NCBI GenBank assembly: GCA_003978465.1
Contig: QNZS01000071.1
Span: forward strand, 1-36,901
DNA length: 36,901 nt
Source: Sulfurimonas sp.
GTDB lineage: Bacteria > Campylobacterota > Campylobacteria > Campylobacterales > Sulfurimonadaceae
Direction of reading: 5' to 3'
Position numbers and translations under genes: made by a program. Below are positions 34,940 to 36,901 of this stretch, one piece after another. Position 1 is the first letter of the stretch. Each line of letters begins with the position of its first letter. The notes below the pieces were generated by a model that searched no databases, was not told the DNA's origin, and worked only from the letters and a program-made list of their open reading frames with translations.

Positions 34940-35584
34940 ATGAATTTACTAACAGCACAAAATTTAGCACATACTTTTGAATATGAACTCTTTAAAGATG
35001 TAGACATAGAATTAAACTCTGGAGAAAGTATTGCAATTATTGGTATGAGTGGGAGTGGAAAATCTACACTGCTGCATTTACTCTCAACACTTTTAACACC
35101 ATGTGAAGGTAAAATTTTACTTTTTAGTGAAGATGTGAGTTATATGAGTAAAAAAAGGCTCTCTAGCATTAAACGTCATGATTTAGGTCTTATTTTTCAA
35201 TCGCACTACCTCTTTAAGGGTTTTAGTGCTTATGAAAACTTGGAAGTTTCAGAACTCCTCTCAGGACAAAAGATAGAAGATAGCCTATTAGAAGCCTTAC
35301 ATATTAAAGAACCTATGCATCAGAAAGTTACAGAACTCTCAGGTGGACAGCAGCAACGTGTCTCTATAGCAAGAGTTTTAACAAAAAAACCTCGTATCAT
35401 ATTTGCAGATGAACCAACTGGAAACTTAGATAAAAAAACAGCCGATGAAGTTATGAATCTTTTTTTTGACTACTGCAAAAAGAATAATGCAGGTATGATA
35501 CTTGTTACTCATGACAATGATTTAGCACAAAAATGCGATAAAGTTTTTCACCTTGAAGATAAAAAGCTCCAACGCATTAAGTAG
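34940..35584 (+). CDS. ABC transporter ATP-binding protein, LolD-like
   Basis: The 214-residue ATPase has Walker A GMSGSGKST (36-44), Q-loop LIFQSHYLF, the ABC signature LSGGQQQRVSIARVLTKKP, Walker B RIIFADEPTGNLD and the switch His in LVTHDND. The DEPTGNLD form and overall size belong to the LolD/MacB/FtsE group. No permease gene is adjacent; the partner must be elsewhere. The same ATPase stands next to fliR in C. jejuni (Cj1180c, from memory). fliR starts 8 bp after its stop. Confidence 0.85.
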   Translation: MNLLTAQNLAHTFEYELFKDVDIELNSGESIAIIGMSGSGKSTLLHLLSTLLTPCEGKILLFSEDVSYMSKKRLSSIKRHDLGLIFQSHYLFKGFSAYENLEVSELLSGQKIEDSLLEALHIKEPMHQKVTELSGGQQQRVSIARVLTKKPRIIFADEPTGNLDKKTADEVMNLFFDYCKKNNAGMILVTHDNDLAQKCDKVFHLEDKKLQRIK

Positions 35585-35592
35585 TTGATAAT

Positions 35593-36357
35593 ATGGAATT
35601 TATGAAAATATTTCACGATGCAAATGTTATTGGGTTCTTACTTCTCTTTTTTCGTTTTGCAGCACTCTTTATAGCCGTACCAATATTTTCTCATAAAAAT
35701 ATACCGATGCAGATAAAAGCAGCAATGGCATTTTTCTTTACAATTGTATTTTACTCTTCTATGCCACCACTTGAGATAGAAATAACACTGCCGACTATTG
35801 TACTAGCTGTTTTGAGTGAGTTTATGCTTGGTTTAGTTGTTGGTATTGTACTTTTACTAGCATATCATGTTATAACATTTGCGGGAGGCATTATCTCATT
35901 TATGATGGGGTTTTCAATGGCTAGTGCAATTGATCCTCAGTCAGGTGTCTCAATGCCAATCATATCTCAGTTTTTATCTCTAATGGGATTGATGGTACTC
36001 CTTTCATTAGACCTACATCATTGGGTACTACTATTTGTAGACAGATCATTAAAAGTTGTGCCCTTGGGTGGATTTATGTTGAGTGAAGATCTTTTTCATT
36101 ATATTATTCATGCTGCTTCAAATATGTTTCTTGTTGGTTTTATGATAGCATTTCCTATCGTTGCACTCTCTTGGCTAGCTGATGTTATATTTGGAATGCT
36201 TATGAAAACAATGCCACAGTTTAACCTTTTAGTTATAGGTTTTCCAATCAAGATTATGGTATCGTTTGTAGTGTTAATAGCAACATTTGCTTCGACTATG
36301 CTAATAGTTAAAACTCAAATGGTAGAGGCATTTAATGCCTTGGTAATGTTCTTTTAG
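35593..36357 (+). CDS. fliR: Flagellar biosynthesis protein FliR
   Basis: Integral-membrane part of the flagellar type III export gate, with FliP and FliQ. The 254-residue protein has about six helices and family segments FLLLFFRFAALFIAVPIF, HKNIPMQIKAAMAFFFTI, LSEFMLGLVVGIVLLLAYHV and MGFSMASAIDPQSGVSMPII; the last (A-x-x-x-DPQ-x-G) is typical of FliR. The C-terminus NLLVIGFPIKIMVSFVVL matches as well. It is the only clearly flagellar gene in the window. The ATG at 35593 has only a weak ribosome binding site. The receiver gene follows after 56 bp. Confidence 0.95.
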   Translation: MEFMKIFHDANVIGFLLLFFRFAALFIAVPIFSHKNIPMQIKAAMAFFFTIVFYSSMPPLEIEITLPTIVLAVLSEFMLGLVVGIVLLLAYHVITFAGGIISFMMGFSMASAIDPQSGVSMPIISQFLSLMGLMVLLSLDLHHWVLLFVDRSLKVVPLGGFMLSEDLFHYIIHAASNMFLVGFMIAFPIVALSWLADVIFGMLMKTMPQFNLLVIGFPIKIMVSFVVLIATFASTMLIVKTQMVEAFNALVMFF

Positions 36358-36413
36358 TTTTATTTAGATACAATAATATTAATATATCAATATAGTACCC
36401 TCAAGGAATATTC

Positions 36414-36901
36414 GTGAATATTTTACTCATAAATGACAATCCAGTCGTCAATAAACTTGTTAGACTCAGTGCTCAAAAAACTTCTAACAATCTTGAAGTT
36501 GTTGACTCCTTAAAAAATTTAGAGTCAAGTATATATGACTTGGTTATCATTGATGATACCCTTTATAGTAATAAGTTACAGATAGAGCTAAAGGCTAAAG
36601 TTAAATATTCTTTATCACTTTATATTTGTGCGAGAGATGCTGAAGAAGTAAGTGGTTTTACTAAGGTACTGAAAAAGCCATTTCTTCCAACAGATTTAGT
36701 AGAACTTTTTTTAGTTTTAAGTAAAGTGACGGATGAAATAGACTTAAGTGCTTTAGAAGAACACAAAGATGAAAATGAAGGTAAAGTTAGCCTAAAAGTC
36801 CAAGATTTAAAAAGTTTAGATGAAGAGATTGAAGAACTAGAAAGTTTAGATGAAGAGATTGAAGAACTAGAAAGTTTAGATGAAGAGATTGAAGAACTAG
36901 A
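36414..36901 (+). CDS. Receiver-domain protein with acidic tandem repeats (partial, runs off the window)
   Basis: The visible 162 codons start at GTG (36414) with AAGGAA 5 nt upstream. Residues 1-105 are a CheY-like receiver: ILLINDNP with Asn7-Asp8 as the acidic pocket, DLVIIDDTL with Asp47 as phosphoacceptor, ICARDAEE, and Lys88-Pro89. After an acidic linker (108-130) comes SLDEEIEELE repeated at least three times; the last three 30-bp units (36811-36900) are identical in DNA. C. jejuni has a 'highly acidic protein' (Cj1178c) next to fliR, and this may be its counterpart. The length of the array and the C-terminus lie outside the window. No kinase is adjacent. Confidence 0.75.
   Translation, partial: MNILLINDNPVVNKLVRLSAQKTSNNLEVVDSLKNLESSIYDLVIIDDTLYSNKLQIELKAKVKYSLSLYICARDAEEVSGFTKVLKKPFLPTDLVELFLVLSKVTDEIDLSALEEHKDENEGKVSLKVQDLKSLDEEIEELESLDEEIEELESLDEEIEEL
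36811..36901 (+). repeat. perfect 30-bp tandem repeat, at least three copies, open at window end
   Basis: Three identical 30-bp units fill 36811-36900 and the next base continues the pattern. Each unit encodes ten residues (SLDEEIEELE in protein frame), so copy changes preserve the frame. Absolute identity at third codon positions implies recent expansion or gene-conversion-like homogenisation. The window ends inside the array, so total copy number is unknown. Confidence 0.95.

Follow-up and report, generated by a model that had tools for sequence, protein, structure and literature searches.

A probable chePep gene cut by a contig end in a Sulfurimonas-like bacterium, and the retention of its family in Campylobacterota without flagella

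Which protein begins behind fliR at the end of this contig, and does its receiver-like head with an acidic repeat array serve the flagellum? The window, i.e. the whole stretch of 36,901 nucleotides that was analysed, is an entire contig (G000:C12) of a genome that is 82% complete and consists of 74 contigs, and its edge is an assembly break. An initial annotation had described a receiver-like open reading frame (ORF) leading into identical SLDEEIEELE repeats up to this edge, with Asp8, Asp47 and Lys88 in the head. The ORF call and TRF confirmed this arrangement, and all three residues were found at these positions (Table 1). Visible are 162 residues, after which the contig ends. For the array, TRF returned a period of 30, 3.0 copies, 100% match and a score of 182, and a chance match is ruled out. 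The exact array occupies the final 91 bases of the window, the last 61 of which are also present 30 bases upstream. On the other contigs of this 82%-complete genome, neither the 30-bp unit nor the C-terminal half of the gene (E<=10; a weak negative) was found. The conserved C-terminal tail, present in complete relatives, would lie past the contig end in the window gene.

Table 1. Features at the right end of the window and the basis of their assignment.
Feature	Position	Strand	Basis or remark
ABC transporter ATP-binding protein gene, conserved, upstream of fliR	34940..35584	+	Synteny in relatives
fliR, upstream neighbour of chePep	35593..36357	+	Pfam PF01311, E 3.0e-59
Putative RBS AAGGA	36403..36407	+	Read from the sequence; 6 bases 5' of the GTG start
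Probable chePep ORF, GTG start	36414..36901	+	Open at window end
ChePep head, atypical receiver domain, residues 1-108	36414..36737	+	Alignments of 30 + 81 genomes; 3dge profile match; structure model
Start of acidic linker, non-repeated	36738..36810	+	Translation; variable among relatives
Tandem array, three exact 30-bp copies (SLDEEIEELE), incomplete at contig end	36811..36901	+	TRF and suffix repeat

In relatives, the genes are arranged in the order ABC transporter-fliR-X-gmk-tatA-argS, where X is chePep. The near-invariant neighbour of chePep is gmk, not fliR: gmk lies directly downstream in 66 of the 68 named loci where this was testable, whereas fliR lies directly upstream in 59 of 77. 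The window ends before gmk; this adjacency was seen for the nearest relative (L024), and fliR and the ABC transporter gene upstream agree. Of the 249 genomes of the class, 243 gave a ChePep match in a profile search, nearly always as a single copy. Four genomes of family f9 gave no match to the profile; the two inspected have no gmk in the fliR region, and absence of ChePep there is unproven. That the weak matches in f9 are ordinary response regulators was considered too, and was dismissed where the gene adjoins gmk.

The domain order is shared by full-length relatives, H. pylori-type and Campylobacter-type genomes among them; they have in common the head, a long linker containing 26-54% Asp + Glu, two motifs and the tail GVEALKKLLKALSDKNVAASLKGMKISINITLGDK. 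The first motif reads VLDxxE..(V/I)xxLL (LL motif) and the second ends in LKLAVGEE; short conserved helices held by the linker are VLDDEEAQKVKDLLDE and LESQIENAVEELSEEDL...SRDLKLAVGEE. One H. pylori-type genome is G053; its FlhA is almost identical to the 3myd chain, the H. pylori protein, and its ChePep has a poly-E linker and lies beside gmk. The Campylobacter-type ChePep is located between fliR and gmk. HP0322 adjoins gmk (HP0321) in H. pylori, and Cj1178c sits between fliR and gmk in C. jejuni. The 'poly E-rich protein' HP0322 of H. pylori was renamed ChePep (PMC3561388), and the C. jejuni ChePep is CJJ81176_1193 (PMC9665402; PMC5438104). Based on position, domain order and distribution, the window gene is very probably the ortholog of these genes, i.e. 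the chePep of a Sulfurimonas-like bacterium, incomplete because the contig stops within it.

ChePep is an already described protein steering swimming in Helicobacter and Campylobacter. The acidic protein at this locus had initially been regarded as one without a known function; this view is superseded by position, domain order, distribution and literature, and the biology of the window protein should be readable from the studies in H. pylori and C. jejuni. In common with ChePep of these species are the place before gmk (from the relatives), the receiver-like head with KPFLPT[DE], the acidic repeat-rich linker, one copy per genome and limitation to Campylobacterota; the family also has a conserved C-terminal tail, seen in complete relatives. 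The window gene differs in its own SLDEEIEELE unit and array, as all members differ from each other, in its C-terminal half lying beyond the contig, and in a genome showing no CheA or CheW. Searches of Pfam and NCBIfam yielded no family name for the window protein, and the full-length ChePep profile had no match among solved structures.

In H. pylori, ChePep is important for the polar localisation and function of CheZ, and delta-chePep cells show frequent reversals (hyper-reversal; PMC11237671; PMC7750401). A C. jejuni chePep mutant reversed 120 times per minute compared to 95 in the wild type (PMC9665402). The flagellar or polar link proposed for the window protein agrees with this work by others. 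Both flhA and fliR are present in the window genome, as is an intact cheZ; behind cheZ lies a U32 peptidase gene, an order described as conserved (PMC9321776). In H. pylori, others have shown that ChePep recruits CheZ, a phosphatase, to the pole with the flagella and limits reversals; polar CheZ recruitment and control of reversals were shown for C. jejuni as well.

The three conserved pieces head, LL motif and C-terminal tail stand out as candidate functional parts. ChePep is likely scaffold-like, with a docking head, short docking motifs and a tail joined by an acidic spacer; the head would probably not be phosphorylated, and the long, acidic linker with its tandem repeats is predicted to be mostly disordered. 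HubP/FimV and PopZ are polar scaffolds, and ChePep would work like them as an acidic, repeat-rich or disordered polar scaffold gathering motility and chemotaxis proteins. It differs in that its head is a receiver where the others have LysM or PopZ parts, and in the lack of a Pfam or NCBIfam match, and is not a member of these families. The LL motif was also considered as a FliM-like CheY-binding peptide; this is a mere resemblance (CheZ starts with MTQEELDALM), and CheY binding as its sole role is disfavoured by its persistence in genomes without chemotaxis.

CheZ recruitment is not the whole story for the family, since chePep is also kept in genomes without flagella. All 25 genomes without FlhA, CheW, MCP and full-length CheZ carry the ChePep head, and chePep lies beside gmk in 23 of them. 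They comprise 14 genomes of family f6, which we infer to be Sulfurovum-like, eight of the Campylobacter-like genus g30, and G011, G221 and G247. The Pfam CheZ model is too weak for Campylobacterota and an alignment was used for this search instead, which gave one partial match among the 25 (G226, E 8.9e-4). FliR was absent in 18 of 18 tested genomes of this set; all eight g30 genomes have no fliR between the ABC gene and gmk and retain chePep. In one pair without flagella (G207/G226), dN was 0.055, dS 0.295 and dN/dS 0.19, i.e. chePep is under purifying selection; this is the one measurable pair, all others without flagella being saturated or nearly so. Joint loss of chePep and flagella was considered as well and rejected; the weak matches in clades without flagella are orthologs beside gmk.

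This retention is the less expected part and merits a second look, as it raises the direct question of what job a 'chemotaxis' protein has in cells without chemotaxis. From the gene content of these genomes, it suggests a flagellum-independent role. We consider it quite possible, if somewhat short of probable, that ChePep belongs to the core proteins of the entire phylum Campylobacterota and has a role that depends on neither flagellum nor chemotaxis; its pseudo-receiver head and C-terminal tail would then bind a partner common to the phylum. Less likely, but the strongest of the alternatives, is that its older main job was non-chemotactic (e.g. in polarity or division) and that CheZ recruitment was added in flagellated lineages: the 25 genomes and the low dN/dS speak for this as well, but the latter comes from the only unsaturated pair, and the phenotypes reported in flagellated species concern chemotaxis. 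Two papers that name both ChePep and Sulfurovum, neither of them a founding ChePep paper, contain no comment on retention without flagella; one of them has ChePep in its reference list only.

Short or diverged ChePep sequences beside gmk in genomes without FlhA, CheW, MCP or full-length CheZ were observed at L124-L130, L132, L139-L141, L143, L147 and L162-L170. Two genomes of the window's own family (G011, L037; G221, L138) yielded no flagellar or chemotaxis gene; they have no fliR between the ABC gene and chePep, which is short in both.

According to profile and structure models, the ChePep head is a receiver by fold, and an unusual one. For a profile built from 81 heads, the match to T. maritima RR468 (3dge) spans positions 2-102 with E 3.9e-5. 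In the AlphaFold model of the window protein, pLDDT exceeds 93 for almost all residues from 1 to 100, and the matches of this model are receivers throughout (Foldseek), with VIA Z 12.0-13.7 over 103-121 residues. Pfam alone does not name the head a receiver. The modelled topology is b1-a1-b2-b3-a3-b4-b5-a5; alpha2 and alpha4 are absent from both predicted models (window protein and a full-length relative), and a complete five-helix receiver fold with an alpha4 face was not found in them.

Shared with CheY-like receivers are the fold, Asp47 at the phosphoacceptor position and Lys88, the latter two being invariant in 81 heads. Conserved in the head alignments are N7, N9, D47 and K88-P-F-L-P, but not D8. 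N7 aligns with CheY D12 and is Asn in 29 of 30 genomes; D8 aligns with CheY D13, and its position holds D in 17 of the 30 and N, E, Q, R, S or K in the others. The head thus differs from CheY-like receivers by Asn at the D12 site, the unconserved D8, the models without alpha2 and alpha4 and a similarity below Pfam detection; in the 30 genomes, the CheY-type two-acid metal site (D12, D13) is not kept. Because of the Asn, the variable D8 and the missing helices, Mg2+-dependent phosphorylation of the head is unlikely.

The acidic arrays change fast, which is a trait of the whole ChePep family. Most relatives have an array of their own with their own unit, whose length is nearly always a multiple of three bases. 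In Sulfurimonas sp. SAG-AH-194-C20 (L099), a close relative whose gene is complete, a 33-bp unit (SLEEDEIEELE) occurs 10.5 times in the corresponding position, and the VLDGDEAQKVKDLLDE motif and the tail follow. One unit of this array contains an in-frame TAA (L099 4541-4543), which may be a single-cell amplification error. In Campylobacter-like genomes the unit has four residues (12 bp), and a run contains 6 to 28 of them; the unit of H. pylori-type genomes has eight residues and is present 8 times, 4 times or not at all. Between G131 and G128, whose heads are 99% identical, the number is 38 (24+14) versus 17 copies. Among 33 biofilm genes compared across 74 strains, chePep showed the greatest variability (PMC6501431), and CRISPR-like direct repeats were reported within the poly E-rich gene (PMC6330956). 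Two expectations from the initial annotation, a varying copy number and a receiver head fused to a long acidic repeat-rich tail, are borne out by these data. The units appear to be re-made in each lineage by tandem duplication, which fits a tolerant, passive spacer better than a sequence-specific part.

A further explanation, the one originally put forward, is that the protein serves as a flagellar or polar spacer, in the form of a tunable, charged rod or coiled coil that is switched by phosphorylation of the head. The invariant D47 and K88 and the fast-varying array length are compatible with it, and AlphaFold draws residues 129-161 of the window protein as one helix (pLDDT about 90). However, the unit contains six acids in ten residues and no base, and this all-acid charge and the 4-3-3 spacing of L-I-L are ill-suited to a stable coiled coil; in addition, a full-length relative has a linker that is mostly disordered by prediction. 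A governing switch is not supported, as the metal site is not kept and the model lacks alpha4, and chePep is kept in genomes without flagella. As a whole, we regard this explanation as improbable.

Since the array is interrupted by the end of the contig, the three copies in the window reflect a limit of the assembly. The break probably reflects an assembly-graph loop, with the number of copies set by the assembler. Assembly breaks within chePep of other genomes also have repeated suffixes, of 127 (L067), 126 (G002), 99 (G016) and 85 bases (L098). That the three perfect copies are an artefact of a genome with fewer could be read from the 61-base repeated suffix as expected of such a loop, but the loop itself requires a real exact repeat, the other genomes break in chePep in the same way, and the relative assembled through its array has 10.5 copies; we consider this very unlikely, and more copies than seen are likelier than fewer. 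Contigs or scaffolds break or have gaps inside exact chePep repeats at L067, L098, L009 (G016), L010 (G002) and L038 (G028). Due to such breaks, draft genomes under-report chePep.

The least credible explanation is that the ORF is kept mainly through translation coupling to the essential gmk, its most constant neighbour, whose start it overlaps by 1 or 4 nt in 45 of 64 loci, since conservation of head, LL motif and tail is seen at the protein level, G207/G226 show purifying selection and mutants have a chemotaxis phenotype.

In the lineage of the window, ChePep as a probable scaffold coexists with a chemotaxis system that may be reduced. Neither the window genome nor its nearest relative G009 (99% complete) gave a match to CheA or CheW. 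MCP matches numbered none in the former and two in the latter, where a stop interrupts cheV; both have flagellar genes and cheZ. Chemotaxis appears to be undergoing loss in this lineage, with ChePep and CheZ retained.

Also, unusual ChePep architectures were observed. In two Sulfurimonas-like genomes, an HPt phosphotransfer domain with an HKLKG motif is inserted after the LL motif (G006, L018 1498-3309; G019, L035 1584-2708); the Pfam Hpt match has E 7.7e-9 in G019 and 4.7e-4, below the cut-off, in G006. In Sulfurimonas sp. SAG-AH-194-C21 (L105 3532-6567), a 1012-aa ORF joins ChePep head and linker, in the same frame, to HAMP and histidine-kinase parts and has no gmk behind it; this ORF may be a single-cell amplification chimera.
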